A stretch of DNA of 64,000 nt from Chloranthus sessilifolius (taxonomy: Eukaryota; Streptophyta; Magnoliopsida; Chloranthales; Chloranthaceae), in contig CM037584.1 in assembly GCA_021018995.1 (NCBI GenBank), forward strand, positions 143,609,317-143,673,316, given 5' to 3'. Each line of letters opens with the position of its first letter. Positions within the stretch are counted from its first letter, which is position 1. This document shows positions 5,281 to 60,078 of this stretch, piece by piece. The translations under genes and the position numbers were made by a program. A model generated the notes under the pieces. The model was not told the origin of the DNA. It was given only the letters and a program-made list of their open reading frames with translations, and did not search any database.

Positions 5281-5860
5281 GAGTCTCGCACAGTCCAACT
5301 AAGCTTCCCCAGACTTTACAACAACTACTCGCACAGCTCTCACGAAGCTCAAGAGTAGAACACATCGCGCAGTCTCGCGCAGTTCAAAGTAGACCTCTCT
5401 CAACCTCGCGCAGTTCACTTAGAACAGCTGAGGAGAGAGAGCTTCAAGAGACTCCTCGCGCAGCTATCGCACAGTGGCCGCGGGATGCAATTATTTGAAG
5501 AGAACTCCTCGCGCAGTTCTTGCACCATTCAAGAAAAAAGCATCCTCGCGAAGATGGAACCATCCTCGCGAAGATCAGTCAAGACATGAAACCTCACACA
5601 ATTCAGAACTCATTAAAGCCTCGCGAGGAAACTCGCGAAGTCCATTGAAGAGGAGTGTTCTCAAAGTTCTCGCGCTATTCAAATCTGTCCTCGCGAAGAT
5701 CAACCCAGCGAACGCACAGCTACCTCATGACTGCTTGAACTCCAACCCCGTGACATCTGAGGCTTTGATGTCGACTCAACCTCACGACTGCCTGAAGAGC
5801 AAACCAAGACAACCTCACGACGGTTGAAGCTTCAATGTCAAACCATCCTCGCGAAGAGCA
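5281..5860 (+). repeat. Word array CTCGCGCAG / CTCGCGAAG
   Basis: About 15 copies of a short word built on the self-complementary cores CGCG or TCGCGA (CTCGCGCAG, CTCGCGAAG, CTCGCACAG) are scattered at irregular 15-60 bp spacing between unrelated filler sequence. The array lies about 250-800 bp upstream of the TATA box at 6090. Frames through it, such as 5474-5827, are not genes. Confidence 0.85.
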
Positions 5861-6088
5861 AGAGCTACCACGCGACAAGTCTGGGAAATAATGGCTACCT
5901 AGCGAAATCTGAACTTCAACTTCCATCTCTTCAGCAGAGGACCTTCTAGGAATTTTCAGCGATTAAGGCACACACTTCGAGGCTCAAATCTCTGTGCACG
6001 CACCCCAAGGCATCTAAGGATCACTATTCGGCCACGTGGCATCATTAAAATTAGGGTTTCCTAACCCTAATGCACCGCCACACCACTG

Positions 6089-6098
6089 CTATATAAAC
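6089..6098 (+). promoter_or_regulatory. TATA box of LTR 1
   Basis: CTATATAAAC is conserved at the same place in the sister LTR (34037-34046). It is the likely core promoter separating U3 from R. Confidence 0.6.
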
Positions 6099-7572
6099 TC
6101 ATACTTAGTTTAGGTTTAGGAAATCCTGGAATAGCTGGGAACACATCTCATTTCTTGGAGACTTGATCTGAGATCGTTTTTCTTTTCTTTTTATAGCGGT
6201 AAGTAGGTTTCTTTTTCTTTTTCCTTCTCTCCATAGTCCAGCACTTGCTGGCTATGTCTTTGTATGCCTTTTGAACTAGATCAATGGAAGTTTTGTAATA
6301 GGATTTGTACTCTGTAAGATTTGTGTTTGAATGTGAGATGCTCTGTGCAAGGCTGCTGCCTTGTGATCCGCCATTGCTTTGGCTGTGATTCAAAGCAATG
6401 GAGGACTGATTCTAAGGGACACTCAGGTCCAAGTGATTTGTGTGTCTGGGCTATCATGGTCATATACAGCCTTAGCCCCACCACAGGACCCACTAGATCT
6501 GAAATCCCCATGGGTGCTTGAGCTGGTAGCCTGGTGACCATGGTGGTAGCAGCAATATTCTTATTTTTTCTTAGGCTCCGTGAGAGGAGGATAGCCTCTG
6601 GGATAGTCTGTGACCATTCAAGTGGACAGGTTATAGCCTTAGGGTGATTCTAATCCACTGATCCAAGATGGATCCTTCTTCTTTGCACCTGAGCTTGTAT
6701 TAGCCTGGTGGGAGATTGTACAGAGGCAGACTCCCCTATAATTGTATAGATCCGCTATCAGATATTAGATCTGATCTGGTTATAGAGATTTTAGGCTTGT
6801 GACTGGACCATTGTATCCTCACTCAAGCAATAGACAGCTAGATCGAAGGTTGTACTCAATCTCTTGTTGGTTCTATGTGTCTAGGCTATCATGGTCCTAT
6901 ACAGCCTTAGCCCCACACATAGAGCTTTAGAGGTTGAGGTTCCCTATGAATTCTTGAGCTGGTAGCCTGGATGAAATAGTGCCTACAATGATTAACTTGT
7001 TTTGACCCATCCCTAGATTGTGGTTCCCCTATGGGATAGTCTGTGACCATTTGAGTGGATAGGTTATAACCTTAAGGGATTGAATCATGGCAGAGAGATG
7101 GGTTGGATCCTTTCTCCTCAGTGGTGATAACGTAGCCATTGGACAGGATTTCTATAACATCATATCTGAATCTGAGTTACAAAGCTCCTCTGATCTAGGC
7201 TCAATAACATACTTCTCACCCTTTTATATTTATTTTTCACACTCCATCCATCCTCTCAACCCTTTCTGTAGTTTAGACATTAGGTTACCTTAGAATACGT
7301 AGAATTAGTGACCTTAAACTCCCCTCCTTTTTAGGACTGCCAGATCTGTAGTCAGATCTGGAGGGACTACTAGAGATGGCTCCCTTGGAGCTGTAGATCG
7401 CCCTTCCCTGTGGGACAAACTCTTACTTATCAAAACTTGTCACAATGGACCCTGTATCTTGCAGGTCTAGGATTTCTTAGTTGTGCTGATTTCATCCCCT
7501 GTTTTATCTTGATTTTAAATTTCTTTTATCACAAACCAATAAAACAAGCACACACTCAGAGATCCGCCAACA

Positions 7573-8698
7573 ATGATAGCCACTAATCCCTTTTCTACTA
7601 ACAGGGGCAAAAGTACACTCAATGATTACCCCAAAGGTGTGAAGACTCGGTCATAGCGGGCTCTCCTCTGTTCTGGGGTCATTTGCATTCCTTGCCCATT
7701 CCCCATTCTTTGCATCTGCTCAAGCCTAAAGGGTGCTGGTAGGGTAGCCTGAAATTGAAACAGGATTGTATTGTTATTGGGTCGGGTATTGACTATGTTC
7801 TAAACATCGCCCCTGTTCTCTTCTCGTTCCTTTGCTCTGAAAATCTTCTAACCCCATTGGGTTCACTTGGCATATTCTTATTCAGACGCCCCTCCCTGAT
7901 GGCGTCCTCGCATCGGTTAGCATTTCTCACCAGATCAACAAAGCTGGTCTGCTGCTGATATACCAAAAAGTCTGAAATCACTAGCAGAGTCTTCTTTGAA
8001 ATCATCTCTATCTGTTCATCATCAGGTATTCTATCCCTGACCTGAGCTACCAATGCTCTCCATCGCCCCAAGTAGTCGCTAAAGGTCTCATTCTGGTTCT
8101 GCTTTAAACTAGCCAAGTCAGACTTACGCAGCTCGATGTCTATATTGTAGACATACTGTTCTTGAAAGAGATGCATCAAGTCCCTCCACGTTTTCATCAT
8201 AGACGGTTCTAAAGATGTGAACCGTCTTAAAGCCAGCCCGATCAGACTCTTTTGAAAGACTTTTATTAGCAGTCTTTCATCCTCCCCGTATTGGCACATG
8301 TCCCCACAGTAGGACTTCAGGTGAGCAATAGGATTGCCAGTGCAATTATATTTGTCAAAAGCTGACATTTTAAATTTGGGGGGCAGGGGGACCTCAGCGA
8401 ACAGACATAAGTCTGTGAAGTCCGTGGCATGGATTTCAGCACCACCCATTTTCATCAGCTACTTCTAAATTTTATCCAACTGCTCTTTCAGCTGCTCTGA
8501 CTCTTTTGATACAGGGATCGCTTTCTCGGCCGTCAGGTGGACTTCACTCTGGGCCACCAGGGGGTGGGCAATTATGGGAGGAGAGTTGAGGCTGGTCAAA
8601 GACCCAGCATAAGCCTCGCTATTCCTAATCTCGTCCTCTTCATACTGCTGGTCGGCATAGTGTGCGGCGAGGGCGGGATTCTCCTGTTGTTGTTGCAT
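7573..8698 (-). pseudogene. gag: Gag core of the Tat-like element
   Basis: One minus-strand frame carries this protein with stops at about 8456-8464 and further on. The first part ends in a Gln/Glu/Lys-rich coiled coil. Then follows the Retrotrans_gag core (8455-7793), with PPKFKMSAFDKYNCTGNP and KTWRDLMHLFQEQYVYNID-like motifs typical of Tat gag. The C-terminal part continues to 7573 with TPEQRRARYD and then is cut off by LTR 1. The nucleocapsid and protease are missing. Several stops look like CAG or CAA turned into TAG or TAA. Confidence 0.8.
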
Positions 8699-10324: not shown

Positions 10325-10677
10325 TTTTTGAAAGAATTTTTAGAAAACAAAGGTTCCGAGGCCTTGGAATTCCCTCTTCCGGTGGCTCTCATACCTTAAT
10401 TCAAAACCCATACCTTAATTCAAAACCCGCAGCTACGATTCCGACACACTTCGGAAGAATTGAAGGAGAACCTTCGATCTATTGAAGGCACAAAAATCGA
10501 GGCAAGCAACCCGATCCCTCGGAATGAGCCAAAAATAGGTTACCCTCTTTTGACTGGCGAGAGCGTATTGGGTGTCAGAGATGGCGGGCCCAAACAAGAT
10601 ACTAAGCACACTAATCGGGGAACTCGGGAGGTGAAGAAGGCCACAAATTTGGGCTGATAGGCTGATAAATAGACTTG

Positions 10678-10840
10678 GCGCAACTAATACCTGCGCCCAG
10701 GTTGCAGGGGACTCCTTTTACATAGGCGCAACTATTAGTTGCGCCAAGGTAAAGTTTGGAGATTTTAACGCTGATGCAACTATTAGTTGCGCCAGTTATA
10801 AACTCCCAATTTTTGTACTGGCGCAACTAATACTTGCGCC
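10678..10840. repeat. Inverted word GGCGCAACTA/TAGTTGCGCC in the leader
   Basis: Four copies of an inverted word made of arms GGCGCAACTA and TAGTTGCGCC around one central T. The copy at 10725-10745 is perfect. The same word fills part of the LTR at 12694-12942, so here it occurs outside the LTR as well. Confidence 0.85.
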
Positions 10841-11348
10841 AGACAAAAATTGAATTCCAGAATGAAATATAGCAGAGACAACAGCCCAATATGAGTCTTT
10901 TTTTCTAGTTTTTGTGGAAGCTAGGATTCCGGGAACTCAACTATTTTTTGGTGATCGATTTGCTCCGCACCGCACCTAAAGGGTTTGAGTCCGGTATAAC
11001 TCGCTAGCGCACTCCCCCAAGGGTTTTAAGCTTCGAAATGGGAACCCACCCGATATACCTCCGGCACAGCTTGCCTTCTCAGATACTAGGTGAGCTGGGA
11101 CTTTTCTGGATCATCACCACTAAGGGTTGCTGCCATACTAAGACCCGGATGTTTGTGTGTTTGCCTAATCCCAACCCTTTTTAAAATCTACCCCGTAAAA
11201 ACAAATTAATTAAGCTCCCTAACTTTGTTCAATTTTAATTTTTTCAAAGCTTTTCTCTTTTTTTAGAAGTTTTCTTTAGTTCAAAGACCGGGGGTGATTA
11301 TCTCGTGCCCCCACTACGGCTGACGTCCACTGATGGAATATGAGTGCA

Positions 11349-12693: not shown

Positions 12694-12942
12694 TGGCACA
12701 ACTATTAGTTGCGCCAGGCAAATGTACAGTAAAACAGTGTTTTAAATAGTGCTTGCGCCAGGCAAATGTACAGTAAAATAGTATTTTAAACAGTGTTGGA
12801 AGTTACCTCGCGAGGGTGGGCCCCACTTTTAACCCTGGATCAACTATTAGTTACACCAGGCTTAAAGTCTGAGAGAATTGGCCTAACGCAACTAATAGTT
12901 GCACCAGGCAAAGTTATAACTGGCGCAACTATTAGTTGCGCC
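12694..12942. repeat. Inverted word array in the Tat-like LTR
   Basis: At least four copies or half-copies of the GGCGCAACTA / TAGTTGCGCC inverted word. The copy at 12922-12942 is perfect. A second short repeat, GGCAAATGTACAGTAAAA, alternates with it near 12718-12780. Confidence 0.85.
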
Positions 12943-15057: not shown

Positions 15058-16574
15058 TGTGATCAGACTCAAATATTGTACAAATTATCCATAAATCCTG
15101 GCTTTGTTAGACCTCACTTAACCACTAATATATGCTTTTAGTTCGTGTTGTGTTGCAATAGGTACAGAAGCTGGTTAAATGTTAACCAGGTTAAAAGTAC
15201 AAAGTTATGAATATACCCAAGCAAAAGGTAAGGATCCAAAGAGGAACTGATGAAGGAATGCGTCCAAAGGTTAAATGGATCGGTCAAAATTGTAGATTCG
15301 ACCGGTCAAAATAGCACACCAGAGGAGACTTCCAACTAAAGAAAATCAAGCTTAAATGGACCTGTCGAAGCATCACTTTCGACTGGTCAAAACTCCATAA
15401 AGAGCTTCAGAAATATAAAGTGAGACCGGTCAGGACTCAACCGACCGGTCAAATTTGGAAGAGCAGAATGTTAACATACTCAAAAGAATGACTAGACCGG
15501 TCCAATCTAATTCTACCGGTTAGGAAAATAAGATATGTTGAAGCCTTTGTGGGTCGTCTTCCACCTAGAGAAGGAAACTAAAGTCGACCGGTCGGTGCTC
15601 CAAACTTGACCGATCTAAACTGAGTTTTTGGACGAAACACCAAGTGCACAGCTATGGAGATCTTCTAAACTCTGAGATCTTCTTCGATAATCTCTTGAAT
15701 AGGCTAGATAACTCAAAACCGCATAGATTACCTTCGATAATCATCATCCTTGGAGTATTTTTATGATCTAAGAGTCCTTGTCATGTGTATTTATTCTAGG
15801 GCATTGTAATCTATAAATAAGGACCCTAGGGTTTAGTTTTAGGGGACTCGCACGCCGAAATCTTTATAGAGACTCTGCCGTGAGTTTTTGTAGTTTTAGG
15901 TTAGGAATAGTTCGGGAATAAGAGCGAGACTGGATTAATCATCGATCAGAGTCTACATCAGCAATGTTGGAGCTCTCTGAATCGATGCGCGCTTAAAGAT
16001 TCGGGCTGGATCTCTTGTATTCTAGATAAGTAATTTTAATAAAGTTTTGTTTCTTCTTTCTACTTGTGAATTCTATTAATGGTATGATTGCATGTTAGAG
16101 GTTTCGACTAGATCAAGAACGAGATAGTAATGTTGCAATCTTATTTAGCTTAATTCAGTAGCCTTATAGGGATTGGGTTAACCTAGATAGGATATTCACT
16201 CACAGACTAAGCCTTGTAGGGTAGTTTTGCTAGTTCGTGCAATGGTTCTTTGACGATTGGGTCTGTCTAACTCACGATTAGATTTACCTAAGCCATATAC
16301 AAAGTGACTGAGCTTGTAGCCAGGAGTGGGGTACCAGGGGTTCATGATAGAAAAGAAATAGGAATTATTATTGTGTGAATCTGGAATCCAAGAGGGATTC
16401 TAGTCTGCTTTCTCCTTTGTTACCACCAAAACTTTGTAGATTTCTTTATTCAATTTAGGAGTCTAATGCTATAAAGTATTTCGTAAAATAGAATTAAATA
16501 AGAGATAAATAACAAATCCCTGTGGTTCAACACCCTTGTACTTGCCCTAGTACATTCGGACTTGTGCACTTACA
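15058..16574 (+). mobile_element. LTR of element D with GACCGGTC word array
   Basis: It starts TGTGATCAGACTC after a PPT-like tract. The end is less certain (CACTTACA at 16574, or a little further). About ten copies of a GACCGGTC-centred word occur at 15275-15620, often extended to CGACCGGTCAAA. A TATA box CTATAAATAA follows at 15811-15820. No PBS was recognised after it, as expected for a 3' LTR. Confidence 0.65.
15275..15620. repeat. Word array GACCGGTC
   Basis: About ten copies of the perfect 8-bp palindrome GACCGGTC or one-base variants (GACTGGTC, GATCGGTC, TACCGGTT). They are separated by unrelated filler and lie about 200-500 bp upstream of the TATA box. Confidence 0.85.
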
Positions 16575-29622: not shown

Positions 29623-29701
29623 GCTCGCTCGCGCGAGGATTATCATCACTCGCGCGAGGAGTATCATCGCTCGCGCAAGGATTATTATCGCTCGCGCAAG
29701 G
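29623..29701. repeat. CTCGCGCGAG word array, A 5' LTR
   Basis: Four words with the palindromic core CTCGCGCGAG or CTCGCGCAAG, joined by ATTATCATC-like spacers. The 3' LTR (41912-41970) has only three, so copy number changed since insertion. Confidence 0.85.
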
Positions 29702-38427: not shown

Positions 38428-38830
38428 ATTGACTACTGCGCCAGTACTTGCTAGACTATCAGGCAAGGGAGGCTTTGCAGTGTATAGTGATGCATCGTAT
38501 GAGGGTCTAGGCTGTGTGCTTAACCAGAATGAGAGAGTCATTACTTATGGGTCTAGACAGCTAAAAGATCACAAGAGGAATTATCCGACACACGACCGTG
38601 AATTGGCTGCAGTGATCTTTGCCTTAAAGATCTTGAGGCATTACCTTTATGAGGAGACCTTCGATATATTCACCGATCATAAGAGTCTCAAGTATCTCTT
38701 CTCACAAAAGGAGTTGAATATGAGACAACGCCGATGGATGGAGTTCTTGAAAGATTATGATTGTGCCATCCAGTACCACCCCGGGAAAGCAAGCGTAGTG
38801 GCAGATGCATTAAGTCAGAAGTTCTCTGCT
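38428..38830 (+). pseudogene. RNase H of chromovirus A
   Basis: Frame 2, open from 38429 to 39205 without a stop. It is an RNase HI-like domain with GFAVYSDASYEGLGCVL (first Asp), GSRQLKDHKRNYPTHDRELA (Glu), [14 protein letters not shown] (Asp) and VVADALSQK. All expected acidic residues are present. The rest of the open frame is the connection and zinc-binding part of integrase. Confidence 0.9.
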
Positions 38831-39964: not shown

Positions 39965-40034
39965 GTAAGCTTTGTATCATCGATTGCCTTAATATTCAGG
40001 TAAATTGTGTTTGTAGTTAATACCTGCATTTTCG
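39965..40034 (+). other. 70-bp intron-like insert in the integrase C-terminus
   Basis: Element B has uninterrupted coding sequence here. In A, TTTCAG (39959-39964) is followed by GTAAGC, a near-ideal splice donor, then 70 bp that end CATTTTCG just before the coding sequence GTGGGAGAC resumes. TTTCAG and TTTTCG also look like short direct repeats. Without splicing the insert shifts the frame by one. Confidence 0.5.
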
Positions 40035-40454
40035 GTGGGAGACAATGTGTTTGTCATGATCTTGCCTACAAAAGGCGTAATGCATTTTGGGAAGCGTGGA
40101 AAGTTGAGTCTATATTATGTTGGACCTTTTGAGGTTTTGGGCTGAGTCGGTGAGGTCGCTTACTGTGTAGCCTTGCCACTGCAGCTATCGGGCATACATA
40201 ATGTATTTCATGTGTCCATATTATGAAAGTACGTGAAAGACCCGACTCATGTACTGGACTACCAGCCCATTGAGCTCCGGGAAGACTTATATTTGGTTGA
40301 GGAGCCGGTACAAATCTTGGATCGCAAAGAATAGACCCTACAGACCAAGAGCATTCCCTTAGTCCTTGTGAAGTGGCAGAACTACTCTTCAGAGGAAGCC
40401 ACTTGGGAGCGCGAAGCGGAGATTCGTGAGCAATTTTCATAACTTTTTGAGTGA
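40035..40454 (+). pseudogene. Integrase tail and chromodomain of chromovirus A
   Basis: A GKRGKLSLYYVGPFEVLG segment (the GPY/F module) and VFHVS are followed by a chromodomain at about 40290-40454: VQILDRKE, PLVLVKWQNYSSEEATWERE, then LFE and TGA at 40452-40454. The aromatic and acidic positions (W in KWQNY, E and W in EATWE) are kept. Chromodomains of this group are thought to guide integration to heterochromatin. Stops at 40144-40146 and elsewhere break it. Confidence 0.85.
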
Positions 40455-43180: not shown

Positions 43181-44707
43181 GCTAATGCTCTAAGAATTGA
43201 AATTTAATTTAATTTTAACCGATCAATAAAAAAATGTGAATGAGTTCTGAATCGGGAAGATTTGCGCGGGCGAATTGGTAATTCGCCCGCACGAATTGGC
43301 AAATCGCCCAAGCTGTCCAAAATCGCCCGCGTGAATTGTCCTGTTTGTCTAGAATGCATGATTTCCTTCACAAGACCATAGAGCTTTGACTTGTTTACTT
43401 TTTAGTCATTATTGGGTAGTGTAAAATGTGATGTATATACATGATATGATGTAGGTTGGTAAGGGAATCGGTCCGTGGGATCTTCGCGTGATCCGAACCG
43501 AGGTAGGGAAAACTCAACACCTTGCCATTTTGACCTGATTTTCCTGGACCATATGATATAAATGATCTGTATTATGATAAATTAGACTATTTTATGATCT
43601 TTGAACTTTGCATATGAAATTTGAACCTTGCATCTGAAAATTTGAACTTTGCTTTTGAATATTCGAACTCTGTATCCGAACTCAGTCTCTGAACTCTGAA
43701 TTCCGAACTAGCTATATGTTATGAACGATTTTGATAAAATAAGTTATGTACATTATGCACTTTGATTTAAGGTTCATCAGAACGAGTCCCCCAGTTTGCT
43801 CTTTACACCTGTGCAAAGGTTTATCTGTACACTCAGAACCGGCTAACGGTAATCTGATTCTAAATTCTGAAAAGTGTTTATTAAACAATGATGGTCAGGG
43901 ATTCCCATCGGTAAATTCCGGCTCCCAAAGCTATATTTTCTTGGGAGATTAGTTAAGTTATGATTTAAGTCACTGATAAGATAAGCATTGCATGTAAAAG
44001 TTAAGAACAAATAAGAATCTAAAACTATATGAAATCCCATTCTATTTGAATTCGATTTACGAATCTTGAAATGATGTTCTATACAAGAAATAGCATCTGA
44101 TCCTAGTATTTGAAAATCAGTTATTTAATCTATTTTGAATATTTTCTTTGAATAATGTCATTGAAACCATGTTAGAAATGATACGATGTGATAGTATTGA
44201 TCTTTTCTCTACTGAGCTTAGATTATTAGCTCACCCCGACAATACGTCACAGGTGCAGATACTGATCAGGATCAAGGGCTAGAGAACGATCTGAACTACG
44301 AGCTGAAAGAGGAAGATCACCCACCAAACGAATTCTACCCATAGATTGGAACTTTAGTTTTGACATAGTTTTGGATTTTGAGTGCTCTGGGCTTGGTACG
44401 TCCATTGAGTGTTTTTGTAAATAATAGAATCAGCATGTTTGTATAAGCTTTTTTGGAACCACTATTTAGGTGATGGTCGGCCATCACTGGTGGTTCATTA
44501 TGGTTCCTTTTGTTTATAATTATATATAGAATTGGAGATCTCTTTCCTTTGCCATATAAGATATTCTTTTGCCATATGATATTTGTTCTATAATCATATC
44601 TGCTTTGAATTCCGCGATATGTGTGGATGTACCAAGTGTTTTGTTTGAGGATCGTAAACTGCGATCCGACGGTCTGTTTTTCAGAGTAGGAAATGCAGGC
44701 TATCACA
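43181..44707 (+). mobile_element. Chromovirus B 5' LTR, second part
   Basis: It resumes after element A with GCTAATGCTC and ends GCTATCACA at 44707. It contains the GGGCGAATT words (43262-43335) and one copy of a block that is present three times in the 3' LTR (here about 43600-44030). It also shares the text GATGGTCGGCCATCA with the A LTR. Confidence 0.85.
43262..43335. repeat. GGGCGAATT / AATTCGCCC words
   Basis: About five copies of GGGCGAATT or its complement AATTCGCCC in both orientations, which are halves of the palindrome GGGCGAATTCGCCC. The equivalent in the 3' LTR is 55247-55325. Confidence 0.8.
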
Positions 44708-44712
44708 GTTGG

Positions 44713-47392
44713 TGTGATAGCCCGGATTTTTGTGCTCAAAAATCCGTGCCATCAGGATCATACTCTGGATAATCCCCAAGACAAATCACAAAGTGTCTGC
44801 TCGTATAGCGGAAATCGAGCAGACACTGTCCAGCAGTGGTAAGTTGAGTCATCAAGTAAGGCATTAAAAATAGAAAGAAGCAGTAAAACAAACATGTATC
44901 TAATATATAAAAATATACATTCCCAAAAAGGAACCAAGAAGAACCAATGATGATGGACATCCATCACCCAAAATAATGGTTCCAATAGAATGTATAGTAA
45001 TACAAAAGGAAATATCTACAAAAATACAGAAAGTGGCCACAAGGCACACAATAATCCAAAGGTCTATACAAAATCCCTAAAACATCAGACTAGTATACCC
45101 TGACTATGGATAGAAATCATCCGCCTGGACGTCCGTCTCCTCGTCCTCAGCCTCTAGATCAGGCTGATAGTCAAGGTTACTCTCGGTGCCAGGAACTCTA
45201 GCCTCCGAACCTAAAATGTTGATGAAAACAGGGTGAGCTACATCATAGCTCAATAGAAGAATTCCAACTAAAATGAATTGAATATGCAGATCATGATATC
45301 TCAAATCAAGAAATCAAATCAAAACATGCAAACAGGACAAATCAATCTAATACTGAGCTTTTAAACAGAAATTGATGTTATGCAACTACATGATTAGTGA
45401 CTTAAATTGTGTATGTTTTCTAACTTAAGAAACTCCCATGAATATATAACACGAAGTAAACAAGAATTTACCAATAGGAAACCCCAACCAGTCGTCGTTC
45501 ACATGAACAATTTTAGATTGCAACAATGCCTCATCTATGGAGTGCAATTGTGCCGAGAGATTACAAGCAGATGCACAAGTGTGCCAGGCTCGGATATACC
45601 GCCGGTTCGGTGGGGATCATCTGGTTAAATTATCAAATCACGTACACACATAAACCTCATGAATCAGATGACAGAAATCAAGAGCCAATTTCAGAATTCA
45701 AAATCAGAAAATAGGAATCAGATGTAACAGGAATTTATGATATGCTAACATGCTTGTTAAAACAGAAATCAGAACACAGGTACGCAAAAATCATGAAATC
45801 ATAGACAAAACTGTTTAAGTTGGTTTTCCCCTACCTCAGGTCAGACCTCTTTCTAAGTAAATCCAAAACCTTTTAAAGCGTCATGGTCCGATTCTAGACC
45901 ATAAACATAGTATACTACATGTCAGGTAGGTCAGAAAGTCAACTGGTATAGTGTCCAGTAGCATTCAACCCACACGAACAAAACAGGACAAAAACAAGGG
46001 TGATTAATCGATCAACACCCTCATTGATCGATCAATCCTCCTTGTTGATCGATCAATGTCTTCATTGATCGATCACAACCCTCAAACCATCTCACAAGTA
46101 ACAGAGGTAGTTGATCGATTAATAGCCTTTATTGATCGATCAACACCCTTCATTGATCGATCAATAGCTTAATTGATCGATCAATAACTCCCTTTTCTTC
46201 ACACTTTGTCATAGCCAAATTGATCGATCACCAGCTTGGTTGATCGATCAATGTGTCTTGTTGATCAATCAATGCCCTCATTGATCGATCAATGGCTTAA
46301 ATTTTCAAAATTCCCACCTTCTGTTCACATTTGTAATTTATACAGATTGATCGATCAATGCCTTCATTAATCGATCACCACACACAAGTGATCGATCAAT
46401 GCCTTCATTGATCGATCAATACCAGTCATTGATCGATCACACTCTCTGTGATCGATCAGTACTCAGGATTGATCGATCAATCTACTAATTGATCGATCAA
46501 CACCCTTCGAGCATTGAACTTCCAAGAATTTCAGTGTTTCTGTTCCCTTCTTTGTCTTATACGAATTGATCGATCAATGCCTTCATTGATCGATCAACAC
46601 CTTTCATTGATCGATCAATCTAGCATTGATCAATCAATAATGGTAGCACCTCTGTCATTAATGGAGGTCACTTCTTGACCTAATTTCCATCCTTTTCATT
46701 TATGGTTTACAACAACCATTAACACACACACCCACACAAGCTCAAAGGCTTCAACCTTGCCCATTTTAAATGCACAAACATACCTCGATTTGGGTCCTCT
46801 CGTGGTTCTGGCAAAAAGATCCGAAAGAGGGTTTCGGATCTGGAGCTCGGGCTGTATCGTTGGTGTGACTCCGATACGTAATGTATCGACTCTGATTCAG
46901 CACGCGGAGGTCTCACACACACTCGGACTACGCTTGAGTTCGCTTTATTGAACTCACCCTACTTCATCGCATACCGACGCATGATCTCTGTAGCTCTAAC
47001 CCCCCTTTCTCGCAGAACGCACTCAATCCCCACCTAACTACAGGTTTTTTTTTTATACAATAACAAGAGGAAGAAGAAGAAGAAACTTCTCCCCAGGTCT
47101 CTCCCTTCCTTTATAAGCTACCTAAACTGAAATATCTCTGATATTTCAGTTTAGACCCTAATTTGAACTCGATGTTAAGCACCTACATGATCTCTACGGC
47201 GTAACACGATCCACCGAGGTTCTACTAGTCTCGGATTCACGCGAAAATTTACACATAACTTCATCTATCTATAGGATAATATTATTTCAAATAATATCAA
47301 TTATAAAATTTCAAATCGGTCTTGATTTTCGTGCCAGGCACGCATATCGAAACAGTCAGGTTCTTGTTCTAAGTTTTTTCAGGGTCATTACA
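44713..47392 (-). mobile_element. Solo LTR E, minus strand
   Basis: 2680 bp. On the minus strand it starts TGTAATGACCCTG at 47392 and ends GGGCTATCACA at 44713. A perfect 5-bp duplication GTTGG flanks it (44708-44712 and 47393-47397). It shares chromovirus LTR phrases, in reverse, with A and B (for example the GATGG...CCATCA segment at about 44946). The TATA-like CTTATAAAGG (minus) is near 47110; the word array lies downstream of it at 46007-46640. Confidence 0.9.
46007..46640. repeat. Word array TTGATCGATCAA
   Basis: About 24 copies of the perfect 12-bp palindrome TTGATCGATCAA or one-to-two-base variants, at irregular 16-60 bp spacing. Many are followed by TG(C/T)C or CACCC. The copies are far better preserved than the filler between them. 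Confidence 0.95.
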
Positions 47393-47518: not shown

Positions 47519-48766
47519 ATGGCCCCATATATCAGAGGTAGAGGCAAAACGAGGACGATCCACATGGTAGACGTCTCGAATATCGAGGGCACGTCGCATG
47601 GCATAGGAATCGCCACAAGTCCCAACACTATTCCATTGGGAAGAGGGAATGGAGGAGAAGGAAGTGACAGTGGAAGTGACAGACAATTGTTGGAGACCAT
47701 GGCCAATGCGATAGCATAGCTGACAGAGATACTTGTGACAAGAAATCAGCCATCAGGGTTTTCAGAGTTTAGGAGAATGCGTCCTCTGAGCTTTTCGGGT
47801 CAAATCGATCCACTTAAGGTTGAGAAGTGGTGGAATAAGATGGAGAAGATCTCAACTATGATTCCTTGCACTGAGGATGAGAAAGTGAGATGGATAGCCT
47901 TCAAACTGGATGGAGAGGCTGATCCCTTGTGGAAAGAAGTGCAGAGAGATATAGTATAAGAGACTCCAAATATGTCGTGGACTTGGGCCGAATTTGTTGA
48001 GAAATTCAATGATGAGCACTTCCCCAAAGTAGTGAGGAATCAGTGGGAAGTCTAGTTTATCGAATTGAAGCAAGACCAGATGTCCGTGTGCGAGTACGGG
48101 GCCGAGTTCACTTTATTCTCGAGATTTGCGCCTCAATATGGGCCACCAATTTAATGAAGGCCATGAAGTTTCAATGTGGCATGAGGCCAAACATACAGGA
48201 AAGAGCCTCACTATTTGAGCCATGAACATATGCTGAAATGATGGCCAAGGCCCTTATTGCCGAGGAAGACATCGAGAATATGTACAAGAGGAGAGATCAG
48301 CAGAATAGGAGTAGAAATAGTCAAGTGCAATCAAATGCCTATGAGCAGGCAAATAAGAAACCAAGGTATTCAAGACCACCACGCTATCTTGCTCAGATGG
48401 CCTATTCGAGACTGACCTCCTATCCGAGGCCGCCTGTACCCTTGCCCACAAGATCTTTTCGCCGTTCAGGCCCTACTACTATGACTAGAGCATTTGTGGC
48501 ACCATGACCTTCTCGAACCGCAACATCTACTCTGATGGAGACATGTGCACAGTGTGGGAAACCACACAAGATGGAAGAATGTCGACGGACCACAGGTGCT
48601 TGCTTCAGATGTGGTAAGATGGGACACATTATTAGAGATTGTCCTGAAACGAGGAAAAACGGGACGGCATCGGCATCTGTTCAAAGGCCTTCTCGACCTA
48701 CGGTCCGAGGCCGGGCATATGCTGTCACTGCTCAGGATGCTTAGACATCAAACGACGTCATACAAG
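47519..48766 (+). pseudogene. gag: Gag of chromovirus B
   Basis: It begins with ATG at 47519 (MAPYIRGRGKTRT). The gag core has MRPLSFSGQIDPLKVEKWWN and FNDEHFPKVVRNQW. Stops at 47717-47719 and 47957-47959 fall at expected glutamine codons, and a frameshift near 48140 moves the rest to frame 1. The nucleocapsid has two complete knuckles: CAQCGKPHKMEEC (CX2CX3HX4C) and CFRCGKMGHIIRDC (CX2CX4HX4C). The region ends SNDVIQ at the exon-intron border. A TAG at 48741-48743 is either a gag stop or another Gln change. Confidence 0.9.
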
Positions 48767-48907
48767 GTATAATTCATTTGAATTATCAGTCTTTACTTTA
48801 ATTTCTCCTTAGTGGATTTTATTGTAGTTTATTTTCAATAATTGCAATTCATGAGTGCCATCACACATTTTTTATGCAATTAACTGAATTGCATGTGTGA
48901 CACTTAG
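48767..48907 (+). other. Candidate spliceosomal intron, chromovirus B
   Basis: 141 bp, AT-rich, begins CAAG|GTATAATTC and ends GACACTTAG|GT. Joining the flanks gives Asn-Asp-Val-Ile-Gln-Gly-Thr-Leu and then the protease, at the same codon and phase as in element A. A YTNAY-like branch site TTAAC lies about 28 bp from the acceptor. Read without splicing, the frame meets TAA after about a dozen codons. Confidence 0.8.
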
Positions 48908-49440
48908 GTACCCTACACATGTACCAACGTAGCGATATATGTCAACACGAGGCACAGGTATTGATAGACCCAGGTTCTACGCACTCCTTCGTAACTCCAC
49001 AGTTCGAACCTTTAGATTTTATTCTAGAAGTGTTAGTTCCTATGAGAAATTCGGTGAACACAGATATGTGTTGCTAATCAACTGTCATCTCAGTTGAGGA
49101 TCGTGAAACAACAATAGATCTCATTTTATTAGGCATGCAAGGATTCAGTATAATCCTTGGCATGAATTAGCTATCCGCTTACCATGCAAGCGTTGATTAC
49201 CTACAGAAGATAGTTACCTTACGTCCTCCAAAAGGAAAGTCATTTAGATTTCATGGTGTCAAATCTAGGGCTGCACCGTTTATCTCCATTATTCCAGCCG
49301 CACGTCTGATGAGGAACGGATGTAATGGATATCTCGCATTCTTGCAAGAGCAACGGGAAGAGAAGAATAACATTGTCGATATTCTAGTTGCATGCGAGTT
49401 TTTGAATGTGTTTTCTAAAGAACTACTAGGATTATCGCCT
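48908..49440 (+). pseudogene. Protease of chromovirus B
   Basis: The catalytic segment VLIDPGSTHSFVTP is at about 48955-48996, with aspartate at 48967-48969. The signature FSIILGMN-stop-LSAYHAS follows near 49146-49190, with TGG replaced by TAG. The C-terminal linker has RPPKGKSFRFHGVKS and leads into RT. Confidence 0.85.
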
Positions 49441-50300
49441 GACTAAGAAGTTGAGTTCGCAATCGACTTAGCTCCAGGCACGAAACCTATGTCGAAAGCA
49501 GCGTATAGGATGGCTCCGGCTGAACTGAAAGAGTTGAAAGAGCAGTTACAGAAACTCTTAGATAAAGGGTTCATAAGACCAAGAGTTTCTCCTTGGGGAG
49601 ATCAATCTTATTCATCAAGAAGAAGGACGGGTCGATGAGGTTGTGCATCGACTACCGTCAGTTGAACAAGTTAACGATTAAGAACCGTTATCCACTTCCA
49701 AGGATCGATGATCTTTTTGATCAATTATAAGGAGCAAGGTTCTTTTCCAAAATTGACTTAAGATCCGGCTACCATCAGTTGAAAGTTAAAGCCGGAGATA
49801 TTCAGAAGACGACATTCAGAACCAGATATGGGCATTACAAGTTCTTAGTGATGCCTTTTGGCTCAACTAACACACCAGCTTTATTCATGGTCTCATGAAT
49901 AGGGTGTTCAAATCACATCTCGATAAATGTGTGGTCGTATTCATAGATGACATCCTCATCTACTCGAAATCAAAGGAAGAACATGATCAACACCTACAAG
50001 TTGCTCTTTAGACACTATGTCAACACTAACTTTATGCGAAGCAGAGCAAGTGTGATTTCTGGTTAAAACAAGTGAGCTTCTTAGGACATGTTTTCTCTGA
50101 AGCAGGCATCACAGTGGATCCAGCAAAGATAGAGGCTATTGTGGAATGGGAACAACCGAAGACTGTGACAGAGGTTCGCATTTTTCTGGGTTTAGCTTGA
50201 TACTATAGGAGGTTTGTTGAAGGGTTTTCTAAGATCTCAAGATCGCTCACTTAGCATATAAGAAAGAATGTTAAGTTTGAATGGACCGAAGCATGTGAGA
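49441..50300 (+). pseudogene. Reverse transcriptase of chromovirus B
   Basis: The motifs are readable in more than one frame: [16 protein letters not shown], then a small deletion near 49600, [46 protein letters not shown] and LVMPFG. A further deletion is near 49890. The catalytic box FIDDILIYS (49940-49951) is intact. [15 protein letters not shown] and FLGLA follow. Stops are frequent at expected Gln codons. Confidence 0.9.
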
Positions 50301-50775
50301 AAAACTTCCAGGAACTCAAGAGAAGACTGACCTCTGCACCAGTACGTGCTATTCCATTAGGCAGCGGAGGTTTTGTAGTTTTCAGCGACGCATCACACAG
50401 CGATTTAGGCTCTGTGTTTAATCAGAATGAGAGTCATCGCCTATGATTCTAGACAGCTCAAGGATCATGAAAAGAATTACCCAACTCATGATCTTGAACT
50501 AGCAGCGGTAATCTTTGCGTTGAAAATATGGCGGCATTATCTTTATGGGGAGACCTTTGAGATATACACCGATCATAAAAGCCTCAAGTATCTATTTACT
50601 CAGAAGGACCTGAATATGAGGCAAAGAGGGTGGATGGAGTTTCTCAAGGATTATGATTGCTCCATTCAATATCAGCCCAAAAAAGCTAACTTAGTAGCAG
50701 ATGCACTAAGTCAAAAGTCACCTGCTCAGTTGTCACATATTATAGCAAGAGTACAGAGGTGGCCTTTGCTTTAAG
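50301..50775 (+). pseudogene. RNase H of chromovirus B
   Basis: [15 protein letters not shown], then a one-base change of frame near 50425, [34 protein letters not shown] and [10 protein letters not shown]. The acidic residues are retained. The open part is 50427-50774. Confidence 0.9.
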
Positions 50776-51963
50776 ATATGGCCTTATGCGACATGAGGTT
50801 CGATGTTAAAGATTCTAAAACCTTAATGGCTAATATTGTATTCGTTCAATAGTCCTTGACAATATCCGAGATTTACAAATGACCGATGAAGACCTCATGG
50901 CCATCAGACAAGAAGTGATTAATCAGAAGAGGCTCAATTTCTCCATCAGAGAGGGCATAGCACTACTATTCAGAGGTCGAATGTGCATGCCAATTGACGT
51001 CGAGCTTTGAAGTACAATTCTAGAGGAAGCTCACAAGTCAAATTACGCCATCCACCCTGGTAGTACCAAAATGTACCAGGATCTGAGGAAAAAATTTTGG
51101 TGGAGAGGTTTGAAGAGAGGCATCGTCGAGTACGTGTCAAAGTGCTTGGTGTGTCAACAAGTAAAGGTGGACCATAGGAACCCATCAGGTTTATTACAAC
51201 CTTTACTGATACCCAAATGGAAATGGGAAGCAATATCTATGGATTTCATCCTTAGATTACCGAGGACAGTGAAAGGGCACAATGTCATATGGGTGATCAT
51301 CGATAGAATGACCAAATTGGCTCACTTCCTACCATATAGCACGAAGTATACAGCGAGCAAGTTGGTAGAGATGTATCTTAAAGAAATTGTCAAGCTACAT
51401 GGTATCCCTGCTAGCATTATTTCAGATAGAGATTCGTTATACACATCATAGTTTTGGCAGCAGTTTCAAGAAGGAATGGGTTCAAGGTTAAACTTCAACT
51501 TAGCATTTCACCCATAGATTGATGGGCAAATCGAAAGGGTGCATCAGATCATTGAAGATATGATTCGGGTCTGTATGCTAGATTTTCAAGGGTCATGGGA
51601 AAAACATCAACCCCTGATTGAGTTCGCATATAATAATAGTTATCAGACGAGTATTGGAATGGCCCCATTCGAGGCATTGTATGGGCGAAGATGCAAATCT
51701 CCGCTTAACTGGGAAGAAATCGGAGAGAAGTTCATACTGGGTCCTGCAATAGTTGAGAGCACTACTGAGGTGATACGTATGATCCGTAAAAGAATCAAGG
51801 TCACACAAAGCAGACTAAAGAGCTATGCCAACCTGAAGAGAACAAACGTCGAGTTCAAAGTTGGAGACTACATGTTCATTAAGATCTCACCTACGAAAGG
51901 TGTAATGCGCTTTGGAAAGCGTGGGAAGCTAAGCCCGTGTTATGTAGGACCGTTTGGATATTA
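50776..51963 (+). pseudogene. Integrase of chromovirus B
   Basis: HHCC: AHKSNYAIHPG and CLVCQQ (about 51029-51163). The DDE core is readable: Asp in MDFILRLP (about 51239), Asp in SDRD (about 51422-51433) and Glu in GQIERVHQ (about 51523-51548). Two long open parts are 51071-51451 and 51539-51964, separated by stops. The C-terminal GKRGKLSPCYVGPFG (GPY/F module) follows. The segment corresponding to the 70-bp insert of A is continuous here. Confidence 0.9.
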
Positions 51964-52278
51964 GGCCGAGTAGGCGAAGTTGCATATCGAATCGCTTTAT
52001 CGCCGCAACTTTCGAGTATGCACAATGTATTTCACGTATCAATGTTGACGAAGTACGTGAAAGACCCAATTCATATCTTGGACTATCAACCAATTGAACT
52101 TCAAGAGGTTCTGACCATTAGAGATGAGCCAGTGCATATTCTCAATAAGAAAGAATAGGAACTACGTACCAAGCGGATTCTACTAGTGCTCGTCAGGTGG
52201 AGGAACCACTCACCAGAGGAGGCCACCTAGGGAAGAGAGTTGGATATAAGCGATGCATATCCGCTACTCTTCGAGTGA
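51964..52278 (+). pseudogene. Integrase tail and chromodomain of chromovirus B
   Basis: VGEVAYRIALSPQL and VFHVSMLTKYVKDP are followed by a chromodomain at about 52095-52278: VHILNKKE-stop-ELRTKRI, LVLVRWRNHSPEEAT-stop, then LLFE and TGA at 52276-52278. The conserved tryptophan after EEAT is replaced by TAG. Confidence 0.85.
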
Positions 52279-57462: not shown

Positions 57463-57491
57463 CTGATACAAAATTTGAGGGGCAAGTGTTA

Positions 57492-58462
57492 CAGTAGGCC
57501 CTATTTATAGTCTCAGCTAATTATATGTTGGGAGCCCATCGTATAATTCAAAATTATACAGTGGAAGTCTGACATATATACCTGATTATACACTGAAAGT
57601 CTAGCGTATAATGAATTATACACTATGGTTACAAAGTATAATCAGGGTTGTTATGAGGAAGTCGGTCAAGGTGATCAGTTGTGACCGGCTAAGCCTGAAG
57701 AGAGTGAGTCCCAATCCAAAATGGACTGATCATACACTAGTATTCTACTGTATAATGAATTATACACAATTATTTCAGTGTATAATCCAGGGATTTGATC
57801 GGTTCGCAGAGTATCTGGGTCCTTAATACAATATGGCCCAATTATACGCCGGGAATTCAGCGTATAATCAATTATACGTTGGGATTCCAGAGTATAAACA
57901 AAAACTCATCCTAGGCAGGGGTCGGGTCCAATTATACGCTGGGAGTCTAACATATAATCAATTATACACTGGAGCTTCAACGTATAATTCTCATAAATAA
58001 GGGTTTCAAGATTCTTGAAAGAGATTGTCCTCTCTAGAAATTAGGGCAAGGTCAGTGGTTGGCCGAACACTTTTATATACTTCGAGGGATCGAACATAGG
58101 GTATCTACAATTTTGTCTTTAAAGCTACCAGCACCTGCACACATTTGACCAGTTCACGAGTTTATTGGATCTTCGTTTTTTAGTTATTTTTGTTAAGTTC
58201 AGTTCTTTTGAAATCACAAATATACTTTTGTAATTGGACTTCTTGTAAATATTTATTTTTTAAGGGTTGAAATTTGGACTACATTTCATTTGTCTTACTT
58301 ATAATTCCTCGATAAGTATGAGTTTTACATTTTGAATTTTGAAAATCGAAGTAACCTGATCTTGTTAACGAAAATTGAAAATCTTCTGCAAAATGTTTAC
58401 GCAAATATCATAAATTCTTTCAAAAAGAAAAAGAATGATTTAATCGAAATTGAATTGGCGTA
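57492..58462 (+). other. Orphan LTR-like promoter piece with ATTATACGCTG words
   Basis: From 57520 to 57985 the words ATTATACGCTG and CAGCGTATAAT (and TATACACTG variants) alternate in inverted pairs. They are followed by CTCATAAATAAGG (about 57990) and a leader-like text. This is the same order as in the Athila-type LTRs (word array, then TATA), so I read it as a fragment of another LTR between the two C copies. Its ends are unclear and no gene was seen. Confidence 0.5.
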
Positions 58463-59490
58463 TGTCGCGTCAACCTAACTCGTGGATCAAAATGTGCAGG
58501 ATGTGAGAGTCGCGCGAACGTACAAGGGGATAAGGGCATGACATCTATAAATAAAATGACCTAAAAACTATCAGCTCATTGAACGCTTCTGGATCTCTTC
58601 TCATCTTGTTCATCTAGCTTTGATTGGGCGGCTACTGGTTTGCCTCTGAAATTTTTTTGTCATGAAAAGACCGTAAGCGGTGAAGCTTAGTAAAATCTTA
58701 GTTATTTTAAGGTTGTAGTTTTCAGTGAAGTTTACATGTAACTAAGGTTTCGCACAGTGACTAGTGAGATGTAAAGTTTATAGCATGGCATGATATCAAC
58801 AATACAAATAAAAAGAATCAACAATTTGACATAAACAAGCAAGGTTCTAATAATAATGTACATGGCACATAAAGGAAAGAACAATTATACAGTTGTTATC
58901 TACAATTGAAATATTTGATAACTACTACTATAATGGAAGCAACATACTATGTTCACGTAGATTTTTGGAAATGGTTGCTAAATTATCAATTTTAGAAAGT
59001 TTATATAATCCTTTAGTCAGTTTAATAGTTCATTGATTTATCAACTTAATAGTTTATTAAGTGTCTTTTAATTTATTTTGGTGCGATACTACCACCAACC
59101 ATGGTTTCAGTATTAATATTGATTGCCAATGTCTCGCACATGAAGGTTGACACTCTTCGCCATTTAGTCAATTATGACAAGGATCAATGACCATATTGGA
59201 CTAATATTGTGACATGTGGGTCTGGATCGTCACAACTAATGAGACCAAATCCTCCGCCGAATTAGTATTTTCAGCTCCTACTATTACCTGTGTCGTGTCA
59301 ACCCTTGACCAGAGCTCCTTCTGATATATTGAATGAGTATTTTCAACCATTACTAGTGTCGAAAGTCTTTGAGTATAATTTTTCAATGCGTGTCCCAATA
59401 GAGAGGTCCACCATTTTTTTCCTAAGGTTTCACCCTGATTTTATAGTCACTTAACTAGTTTCGATTTATTTCTTCTAAGTTCGTAAGGGA

Positions 59491-59568
59491 TTTGACCATT
59501 TACTCATAGATTATTCCTAGGTTACTATGGGTTTGACCATTTACTCATAGATTATTCCTAGGTTACTA
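59491..59568. repeat. 37-bp tandem duplication
   Basis: Two identical copies of TTTGACCATTTACTCATAGA plus following bases, ending GGTTACTA. Confidence 0.95.
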
Positions 59569-59703
59569 GGGGTGTCATCAGCAGCGGTCACTCAATTTTT
59601 AAGGAGAGGACATCGGGTCCATTCAAAGTTATTGATGGCTCTCTTACTCTGTTTAAATTTTGTTTATATGAGCCTTAGACCCGAGGGATCAAAATATTAA
59701 GGG

Positions 59704-60078
59704 TGGTTGATAGGACATGAAATTATACACAAATAATCCCTGAAACTCTTTGTTATGCCTTTGGTAATTTTAATTTTATACTCCTGGTGTATTTTAATAT
59801 TTTACAGGTTTAAATGAAGATTTGTATGAATTGATCTTTATATCAATGAAAAGTAGAGGCTTCAAGCTTTCCATTAAGCAAATAAAAGGTCAAACCGAAG
59901 TTGTATATCAAAAGTTATGAAGAAACGAAGGTGAAAATGCAGGAAAATTGTCATCTCGATCGGCAGGTCAAGATTGACTATCCAGAAGGCAGTTTTCTAT
60001 ATCCATACATCTTGATAGGTCGAGATTGGATCTCAACAGATCGAGATTGACTATCCGGAAAGCATTTTTTTTTTTTTA
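59704..60078 (+). mobile_element. LTR fragment inserted in the right C copy
   Basis: This stretch is absent from the left C copy. It starts TGATAGGACATGAAATT, like an LTR end, and carries words of the type GATCGAGATTGACTATCC (three copies, 59960-60060). It stops at a poly-T run. It is a truncated U3 of an unidentified family. Confidence 0.45.

Follow-up and report, generated by a model that had tools for sequence, protein, structure and literature searches.

Arrays of family-specific short words in Ty3 retrotransposons of Chloranthus sessilifolius, present twice per element in a chromovirus-like clade

Arrays of short words in the retrotransposons of Chloranthus sessilifolius are real and genome-wide. 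The main new result is a two-array layout in Ty3 elements. The chromovirus-like elements L013, L044 and L019 each carry one array in the long terminal repeat (LTR) and one before a third open reading frame (ORF); the dyads in both places belong to one word class per element, the class differs between sisters, and a TATA box follows the second array in two copies. We consider it reasonably probable that the arrays are multi-copy sites for mostly dimeric, sequence-specific DNA-binding proteins, acting as enhancers of Ty3 promoters and used twice in one chromovirus-like clade.

Results

The window, i.e., the whole stretch of 64,000 nucleotides that was analysed, holds 15 merged octamer clusters (octamers with at least four copies per 500 bp), versus 0, 1 and 0 in three first-order resamples. 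Genome-wide, TCGATTAATCGA occurs 241,617 times against 55 for its mirror control, TTGATCGATCAA 65,226 times (control: 317), CTCGCGCGAG 5,967 times (control: 205) and TYGACCGGTCRA 5,303 times (control: 203). The arrays and neighbouring features of the window are as follows.

121..1398, + strand: ORF with similarity (32% over 79 amino acids) to a portion of the third ORF in the chromovirus-like elements, left of the first CTCGCGCAG unit
5281..5870, + strand: CTCGCGCAG/CTCGCGAAG array, 12 sites at ≤1 mismatch, in an LTR-like unit starting with TGTTAAGACC at 5084
6090..6097, + strand: TATATAAA box, 220 bp past the first CTCGCGCAG array
10676..10845, unstranded: long inverted repeats GGCGCAACTA-WTAGTTGCGCC, four units by eye, some decayed
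12696..12942, unstranded: more inverted units, GGCGCAACTA/TAGTTGCGCC
15298..15612, + strand: TCGACCGGTCGA (GACCGGTC) palindrome array, 9 sites at ≤1 mismatch (GACCGGTC), palindromy p = 0.007; TATA box at 15812
22511..23078, + strand: non-palindromic CCTATCGAA array, 17 sites at ≤1 mismatch in both orientations; TATA box at 23287
29625..29702, unstranded: CTCGCGCGAG units, 4 sites, 21-bp spacing
30951..30982, unstranded: CGCTCGAGCG, weak, two exact copies 22 bp apart
33408..33797, + strand: array of the second CTCGCGCAG family copy, 6 sites at ≤1 mismatch (counted over 33390-33810); unit starting with TGTTAAGACC at 33209, TATA box at 34038
35680..40450, + strand: Ty3 internal region (Retrotrans_gag, RVP_2, RVT_1, RNase H, H2C2), right of the second CTCGCGCAG unit; 40029-40448 matches the integrase-tail ORF of L013
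41915..41971, unstranded: CTCGCGCGAG units, 3 sites, 21-bp spacing
43268..43288, unstranded: single inverted pair GGGCGAATT..AATTCGCCC, no array
46004..46637, unstranded: TTGATCGATCAA palindrome array, 24 sites at ≤2 mismatches, palindromy p = 0.005; 19 of 23 spacings are 19-21 bp
47753..52272, + strand: related Ty3 internal region (RNase H, H2C2, SH3_Tf2-1), right of the TTGATCGATCAA array
57520..57988, + strand: nine 28-bp inverted repeats ATTATACGCTGG-N4-CCAGCGTATAAT, mostly in pairs 30 bp apart

The two CTCGCGCAG copies align piecewise (5083-7553 with 33208-35453), and the array stretch is among their least alignable parts; the array at 5281..5870 has neither a palindrome nor a 21-bp spacing. 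A preliminary description of this DNA had named dense word arrays at these positions, and they were indeed found there, while its family count, palindrome majority, CG centring and TATA position did not hold as worded. The count of at least eight families was partly built on CTCGCGCGAG (four and three sites), CGCTCGAGCG (three sites) and the one inverted pair GGGCGAATT/AATTCGCCC; two of the listed words, with only one to three sites, were overstated, as was the palindrome share; CTCGCGCGAG is enriched genome-wide. The ATTATACGCTG word belongs to the 28-bp inverted repeat, for which fewer units had been listed.

A scan of the window together with 200 kb sampled from other places found palindromy at p < 0.01 in 7 of 25 arrays (about 0.25 expected) and at p < 0.05 in 8 (about 1.3 expected). 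Palindromy is thus above the permutation expectation, yet palindromes make up a minority of the arrays instead of most of them, with CTCGCGCAG and CCTATCGAA among the non-palindromic words. CG, said to be the centre of many words, lies within 16 of the 25, compared to 19-32% of random 10- to 18-mers drawn from the sampled stretches. The expectation that the word is better conserved than its filler was borne out for TCGATTAATCGA (commonest base per column 0.87-1.0 inside the word and 0.39-0.79 outside; 173 sites) and TTGATCGATCAA (0.79-1.0 and 0.27-0.62; 63 sites), and more poorly for TCGACCGGTCGA (0.56-1.0 and 0.33-0.89; 18 sites), with the word columns inflated by the choice of sites at up to three mismatches.

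A spacing of 19-22 bp is found for TCGATTAATCGA (61 of 80), TTGATCGATCAA (28 of 36), CTCGCGCGAG (5 of 5), GACCGGTC (4 of 8) and the L019 word (4 of 7). The 21-bp spacing is absent for CTCGCGCAG (1 of 16), CTGCGCGAG (0 of 6) and GGACGATACG (0 of 6), three words that also lack a palindrome. Such a spacing of about 21 bp could arise by tandem duplication. Phasing at 10.5 bp is weak for gaps of at least 24 bp (p = 0.005 for all families together and 0.17 once TCGATTAATCGA is left out). As for half-sites, in the window and sampled loci TCGA-N4-TCGA occurs 48 times versus 1-12 times at gaps 0-3 and 5-7, and among gaps 0-29 only gap 17, which equals the array spacing, exceeds gap 4 (54 occurrences). 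Dyad length is 28 bp in all 18 inverted-repeat units when 25-32 bp are allowed, for candidates whose choice favoured arm match.

A strict TATA box lies at most 241 bp downstream in 7 of the 15 arrays tested, and the other eight have none within that distance. The seven are four window arrays (200-241 bp), L021 (12 bp) and the pre-ORF arrays of L013 and L044, where the box starts 10 bp past the last word. None was found downstream of the LTR arrays of L013 (with only about 200 bases left), L041 and L042, nor of the pre-ORF arrays of L019 and L012. As regards the previously proposed position relative to the TATA box, the four window arrays come from three families, and the first strict TATA box after the TTGATCGATCAA array is 665 bp away. 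After the 28-bp inverted repeats, ATAAATA, which is not a strict TATA box, is seen by eye at 57993.

The elements examined are of Ty3 type by their matches to RVT_1, RVP_2, H2C2 and SH3_Tf2-1; in L013, SH3_Tf2-1 scores 81.8 bits and Chromo 21.8 bits, below the cut-off of 25.1. The integrase-tail ORF of L013 ends at 5805 and is followed by an array (6023-6686; 22 sites) and the third ORF, while the LTR runs from about 8734 and holds an array at 9327-9793 (18 sites). An array precedes the third ORF in seven of nine copies read (L013, L044, L019, the first L012 copy, and all three further copies, L046-L048); the second L012 copy has no clear array at this ORF, nor does L045, where the site falls in a deletion. 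TCGATTAATCGA arrays have 10-22 sites each, and their place in the LTR is seen in L013, L041/L042 and L044.

Both arrays of L013 and of L044 have words centred on TTAA and both of L019 on CCGG, i.e., one class per element; L019 contains 16 TCGACCGGTCGA and no TCGATTAATCGA sites at ≤2 mismatches. Among these three elements, two of them from one family, the Jensen-Shannon distance between the two arrays is 0.019 (L013), 0.039 (L044) and 0.065 (L019), versus 0.127-0.267 when the four TTAA-type arrays of L013 and L044 are compared with arrays from other word classes. What agrees is no more than the word class: the distance between the arrays of L019 (0.065) falls within the range that separates them from CCGG-type arrays in other elements (0.012-0.070), and the pre-ORF array of L013 is nearer to that of L044 (0.009) than to its own LTR array.

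Discussion

Two arrays of the same word in one element hint at a matching DNA-binding protein. We propose that the arrays serve as binding sites for sequence-specific, mostly dimeric proteins and would form the activating part, or enhancer, of Ty3 family promoters. In the chromovirus-like clade, this module would be used in the LTR and again before the third ORF, which may have its own promoter. The frame of a 12-bp dyad, TYGA-N4-TCRA, would be kept while its centre (CCGG, TCGG, TCGA, TTAA) and flanks drift between families, and the word class may be the same in both arrays because one trans-acting factor must read both. The earlier idea that families have a module in common but differ in its word is supported, and the within-element agreement strengthens it. 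Among the roles offered with it, dimeric protein sites appear to fit best, given the fixed 28-bp dyad without significant arm covariation, the TATA boxes after 7 of 15 arrays and the array at an internal promoter; RNA hairpins seem less likely, and self-recognition is compatible with the data.

Published LTR motifs of Sireviruses have nearly the same layout and are a close precedent. Their repeated motifs are palindromic, family-specific words in 8-32 copies with diverging flanks, placed in LTRs upstream of the TATA box and, where an envelope-like ORF is present, in a second cluster before it (Bousios et al. 2010, PMC2829016). The LTR palindrome arrays of at least eight copies (TCGATTAATCGA) and the cluster before the third ORF correspond to this, while CTCGCGCAG and CCTATCGAA do not; the words of Tnd-1 (ACAATCGATTGT) and Vitis (CGGTCGACCG) even resemble those found here (PMC2829016). 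Sireviruses are Ty1/copia, however, whereas the elements examined here have Ty3 domains and no copia-type reverse transcriptase. Likewise, all Sirevirus motifs but that of Tnd-1 are described with a CGG-CCG core (PMC2829016), whereas centres vary here and only the CCGG type comes near.

Agreement between the arrays of an element could alternatively be produced by copying between the LTR and the pre-ORF promoter, through template switching or gene conversion. Fast array turnover would be in line with this, as would the alignment of the two L013 arrays, words and filler together, at 67-71% across up to 392 bp; these alignments, however, are confined to the arrays and stop short of the flanks, and we regard such copying as unlikely.

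A further possibility, which we judge quite unlikely, is that the family word is bound at both arrays by a protein of the element itself, the third-ORF product or another one, which then activates or un-silences only its own family. The nearest recognition system is the anti-silencing of VANDAL elements by VANC (Hosaka et al. 2017, PMC5735166; Sasaki et al. 2023, PMC10398659), likewise described with short family-specific words in non-coding, fast-diverging tandem arrays. Yet VANDALs are Mutator-like DNA transposons rather than LTR retrotransposons with a Ty3 pol, the VANC words (YAGTATTAY, AGTTGTCC/AGTTGTAC) are not palindromes, and their binding by a matched trans-acting protein has been demonstrated, whereas protein binding of the words here is putative. 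Retand and Grande, both Ty3, also combine family-specific tandem repeats with extra ORFs between pol and the 3' LTR, for which DNA binding is considered possible, and an accessory gene of Grande with its own promoter appears in the reference list of the same article (PMC11963269). They belong to a non-chromovirus lineage with mostly antisense ORFs, and the text available from this source makes no mention of palindromic arrays or word agreement. Within the elements studied here, self-recognition would suit the single word class per element with other classes in sisters, the array before most third ORFs, the 36-52% identity of third ORFs between word classes and the short, basic N-termini in L044, L019 and L012. 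Against it, no DNA-binding domain was recognised in the third ORF, only a sub-cut-off Transposase_32 match in L045 and L044. L011, of TTAA type with an array in each LTR, yielded no match to the third ORF, and no third ORF is on record for the window's other array-bearing families. Word change does not track ORF distance either, as L048 (56% to the L019 ORF) keeps the CCGG type and L047 (59%) does not. Weakly matching Transposase_32 (PF20167) is shared with the 3' additional ORF of sunflower Athila, a partial match, whereas ORFs of sunflower Tekay, a chromovirus clade, are reported 5' of gag (PMC11728184) and not, as here, behind an array and 3' of an integrase whose tail resembles a chromodomain. 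That a Ty3 clade encodes its own regulator in the third ORF, with co-evolving targets at both promoters, as a family-private, VANC-like code independent of DNA transposons, is doubtful to at least the same degree.

It is very doubtful that the palindromes act in RNA, as hairpins or dimers for packaging or as a feed for small-RNA silencing. The LTR array of L042 is downstream of a TATA-like stretch and could be transcribed, and 7 of 10 double changes in TTGATCGATCAA are complementary (2.9 double changes of any kind expected), although this may reflect the sub-word TCGATCGATCGA. Palindromes in maize Sirevirus LTRs, situated like those here as fast-evolving arrays in a cis-regulatory region, are reported to form secondary structure and to be small-RNA hotspots (Bousios et al. 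2016, as cited in PMC10760457 and PMC5311732). Conversely, transcription from the TATA boxes 10-241 bp downstream of seven arrays would exclude these arrays, complementary double changes are only 2 of 9 in TCGATTAATCGA and 0 of 3 in TCGACCGGTCGA, arm covariation in the 28-bp units is not significant (p = 0.11), and a 4-bp stem with a 4-base loop makes a poor hairpin.

Neutral growth, in which a short unit is multiplied by replication slippage and unequal exchange while the word merely marks the youngest copy, is highly unlikely: a 20-22 bp period, common in minisatellites, and array copy numbers that differ between one LTR of L041/L042 and the other (gaps in 84 of 264 word columns) would fit, but not conservation of the word above its filler (inflated as it is by site choice), palindromes above permutation expectation and a word class common to two separate arrays of an element.

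Dimeric proteins at the arrays thus remain our preferred reading. As TCGATTAATCGA marks about 242,000 places in the 2.17-Gb genome, any reader of this word would have an enormous target set. A motif type called Sirevirus-specific relative to other Ty1/copia (PMC2829016) now extends to Ty3 elements. Were a matching factor to read the word code, the separate control of related retrotransposon families would be explained, and swapping the word between families should swap their control.

Genome-wide occurrence, conservation and symmetry of the words

The dense arrays of short words claimed in the preliminary description are real. Across the 2.17-Gb genome (32 contigs), whose retrotransposons look plant-like, four words occur far more often than the same letters read backwards, with 65,226 exact copies versus 317 for TTGATCGATCAA, 241,617 versus 55 for TCGATTAATCGA, 5,967 versus 205 for CTCGCGCGAG and 5,303 versus 203 for TYGACCGGTCRA. 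These four make up the counted set; AACCTATCGAA, GGCGCAACTAWTAGTTGCGCC, CCTATCGATAGG and TCGANNNNTCGA lie outside it. The word TCGATTAATCGA came from the sampled stretches and is absent from the first word list. Among the first 100 TCGATTAATCGA places listed, four pairs of arrays are 8.7-9.9 kb apart, as would be the two LTRs of one element, and others are solitary. In two related copies (L002 and L004, near position 1501), a lone TTGATCGATCAA stands soon after a TATCAGAGCC stretch; some genomic copies of this word therefore lie outside arrays.

The words had also been described as better conserved than the filler between them. This holds for TCGATTAATCGA, for which the commonest base reaches 0.87-1.0 within the word versus 0.39-0.79 outside (173 sites, at most three mismatches), and for TTGATCGATCAA with a similar contrast, and is less clear for TCGACCGGTCGA (18 sites); as sites were picked by their likeness to the word, the values within the word are inflated. 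Between the LTR copies L041 and L042, substitutions number 4/180 in words and 26/336 in filler, rates that are unusable because the sites were word-picked and the array columns are gappy.

A cluster search for any short word covered the window and 200 kb sampled elsewhere (twenty stretches of 10 kb) and listed 58 clusters at the looser threshold of at least four copies. Palindromy was assessed for arrays with at least five exact copies, five sites and seven conserved columns. Dyad symmetry exceeded column permutation at p<0.05 in 8 of 25 arrays (1.3 expected) and at p<0.01 in seven (0.25 expected) in the window plus 200 kb. Palindromy is thus above chance, but the statement that most words are palindromes was too strong. 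The palindromic arrays come down to four words (GACCGGTC, TTGATCGATCAA, TCGATTAATCGA and TTGATCGATCGA), some of them perhaps related, which leaves few independent cases; CTCGCGCAG and CCTATCGAA show no significant palindromy under column permutation. CG is present in 16 of the 25 array words, compared to 19-32% of random 10- to 18-mers from the sampled stretches.

Further repeats were noted. A GGGCC-ATGG-GCCC type repeat (14 copies, period of about 24) occupies 8951-9300 of the window, near a minus-strand gag-like ORF (7796-8458). Arrays of the 13-bp GCCGACTAATTGG / CGACCAATTGGGC occur in two related sequences (window 27470-27627 and 54069-54260); this short-word array is absent from the first word list. 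Elsewhere in the genome, TTGATCGATCGA / CTCGATCGATCGAC pairs about 22 bp apart are separated by long (AT)n runs (L018:8548-8822), CGATACGTATCG and GGACGATACG cluster in both orientations without 21-bp spacing (L006:1510-1690), and CTTTGCGAAAAG forms an array of similar style that is not exactly palindromic (L015:9300-9600; nine sites, 4/8 spacings of 20-21 bp).

Spacing and covariation

With region limits for spacing counts and word profiles chosen by hand, 61 of 80 neighbour spacings of TCGATTAATCGA (five arrays) and 28 of 36 of TTGATCGATCAA (two arrays) measure 19-22 bp. The same range accounts for 5/5 spacings of CTCGCGCGAG, 4/8 of GACCGGTC, 4/7 of the L019 word and 6/16 of CCTATCGAA, and is rare for CTCGCGCAG (1/16), CTGCGCGAG (0/6) and GGACGATACG (0/6). 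A spacing of about 21 bp corresponds to two helical turns, as side-by-side dimers on one face would need; tandem duplication can also be its source. For 70 spacings of 24-91 bp, the 10.5-bp signal is weak and disappears without TCGATTAATCGA (p=0.17), and p=0.0002 is reached only after post hoc removal of three unphased words. Helical phasing alone was therefore rejected as proof of protein binding, being strong only through the 21-bp spacing and weak at longer gaps.

The word ATTATACGCTG is part of a 28-bp inverted repeat. This length recurs in 18/18 units from the window and L021, a stretch from elsewhere in the genome, with 25-32 bp allowed and the choice among candidate units favouring better-matching arms. 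Its four central bases vary and its arms lack significant covariation (p=0.11). A fixed frame of this kind without clear covariation would suit a dimeric protein more than a hairpin. Complementary double changes amount to 2/9 in TCGATTAATCGA and 0/3 in TCGACCGGTCGA; for these two of the three short words, as for the 28-bp units, covariation gives no support to hairpin selection. The exception is TTGATCGATCAA, with 7/10 double changes complementary against an expected 2.9 double changes in all, complementary or not, and most of these sites look like a putative sub-word, TCGATCGATCGA.

Elements with two arrays

Lineages were assigned by Pfam. L013 is the 3' part of a Ty3 chromovirus-like element, with protease and RT pieces, H2C2, an SH3_Tf2-1 match and a below-threshold chromodomain match in an ORF ending at 5805. 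A third ORF lies 3' of the integrase, before an LTR, and is itself preceded by an array:

L013, 6023-6686: pre-ORF array, 22 TCGATTAATCGA sites
L013, from about 8734: LTR, downstream of the third ORF, with 18 more TCGATTAATCGA sites
L045 (a third-ORF copy), 1709-1810: deletion relative to L013 5060-6985; integrase end, pre-ORF array and TATA region lost

In L013 a TATA box starts 10 bp after the last pre-ORF word and is followed by a leader and the third ORF; another copy, L044, has the same layout and the same 10-bp distance. The more distant sister L019 (third ORF 38-52% identical) keeps this order and carries TCGACCGGTCGA in both arrays, with no TCGATTAATCGA site at up to two mismatches. 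The placement of its second array in an LTR rests on 70% likeness of the following DNA to the L041 LTR and on preceding letters that look similar by eye. The word has changed at both arrays in the three elements in which both can be read. The TYGA-N4-TCRA frame is constant across the sisters, while centre and flanks vary. Jensen-Shannon distances between the word profiles of the two arrays of one element are 0.019, 0.039 and 0.065 (L013, L044 and L019), versus 0.127 to 0.267 when the TTAA-type arrays in L013 and L044 are compared with arrays of other classes. Same-class arrays from different elements are equally close (0.009 to 0.07); the agreement within an element is at the level of the word class. 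The main non-functional alternative is that the array was copied from the LTR to the pre-ORF place or the reverse: the two arrays of L013 do align at 67-71%, filler included, but these alignments stop short of the flanks.

When the genome was searched with the third ORF of L019, 150 of 30,251 candidates were scored, with identity down to 55%. Three of these copies (L046-L048), picked for their open frames and to span a range of identity, were read upstream; each has an array there, with eight TCGATCGGTCGA-like, eight TCGATCGATCRA-like and six TCGACCGGTCGA-like sites, respectively. A pre-ORF array is present in 7 of the 9 third-ORF copies with upstream DNA read. In L045 the deletion spans its place and puts the integrase frame beside the third ORF; this third ORF has abundant relatives that are about 90% identical to it (of 49,627 candidates, 123 were scored). 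L012 has TTGATCGATCAA upstream of its third ORF (36-37% identical), and the 10 kb read showed no LTR array of its own; a second third-ORF copy in L012 has a few TCGAGGGTCGA-like words upstream and no clear array. L011 carries arrays in both LTRs; the cluster scan detected none in the region between, and a match to the third ORF is likewise lacking.

Arrays in LTRs and their TATA boxes

Measured from array ends set by hand, a strict TATA box follows four window arrays (three families) at 200, 209, 220 and 241 bp and the L021 array at 12 bp. No strict TATA box occurs within 700 bp after the LTR arrays of L041 and L042, whose long LTRs (293 to 2928 in L041) measure 2.64 kb by eye, nor in the roughly 200 bases left in the stretch after the L013 LTR array. 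The L042 array lies several hundred bases downstream of a TATA-like stretch that is missing from the L013 copy. As a splice-donor-like GGTAAAATTTT stretch precedes the array in both L042 and L013, these LTR arrays may be intronic.

Relation to known systems

The repeated motifs of Sireviruses (PMC2829016) resemble these arrays in palindromy, copy number and, for part of the arrays, LTR place before the TATA box, and their second motif cluster, before an envelope-like ORF, resembles the pre-ORF array. Sireviruses, however, are Ty1/copia elements, and nearly all their motifs have a CGG-CCG core, which does not hold here. In VANDAL/VANC, it is proven that a matching protein reads short words specific to each family (PMC5735166; PMC10398659). 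Ty3 elements are known in which accessory ORFs and repeats particular to the family lie between pol and the 3' LTR (PMC11963269). In sunflower, an additional ORF similar to Transposase_32 lies at the 3' side in Athila, and Tekay carries an additional ORF at the 5' side (PMC11728184). Because of these precedents, the arrays can be regarded as a variant of a known motif type. The part not found in literature listings is the two-array word agreement in Ty3 elements, which appeared neither in the titles and abstract openings of open-access listings nor in passages of PMC12844716 and PMC12859917. A full-text search for six of the words matched 32 papers; the 20 listed among them are unrelated by title, with no paper on the words recognised.

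Proposed mechanism

The simplest mechanism would be a trans-acting DNA-binding factor, with one matching word per family. The words are at least as likely to be read by a host transcription factor as by the boldest candidate, the protein of the element's own third ORF. The N-terminal stretch of the latter is basic in L044, L019 and L012, but arrays also occur in families with no third ORF shown, and ORF distance and word change do not go together (L047, L048). Against Pfam, the third ORF gives a Transposase_32 match below the cut-off only, and a large protein set holds no relative at E<=0.001 among 1,226 candidates.

Bound by such a factor, the arrays would enhance both the LTR promoter and a putative internal promoter of the third ORF. 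Our confidence is slightly lowered by the second third-ORF copy in L012, which has no clear array, by the double changes in TTGATCGATCAA and by the agreement being one of word class. Nonetheless, on balance we favour, with moderate confidence, the explanation that the arrays are sites for sequence-specific, mostly dimeric proteins and serve as enhancers of Ty3 promoters.
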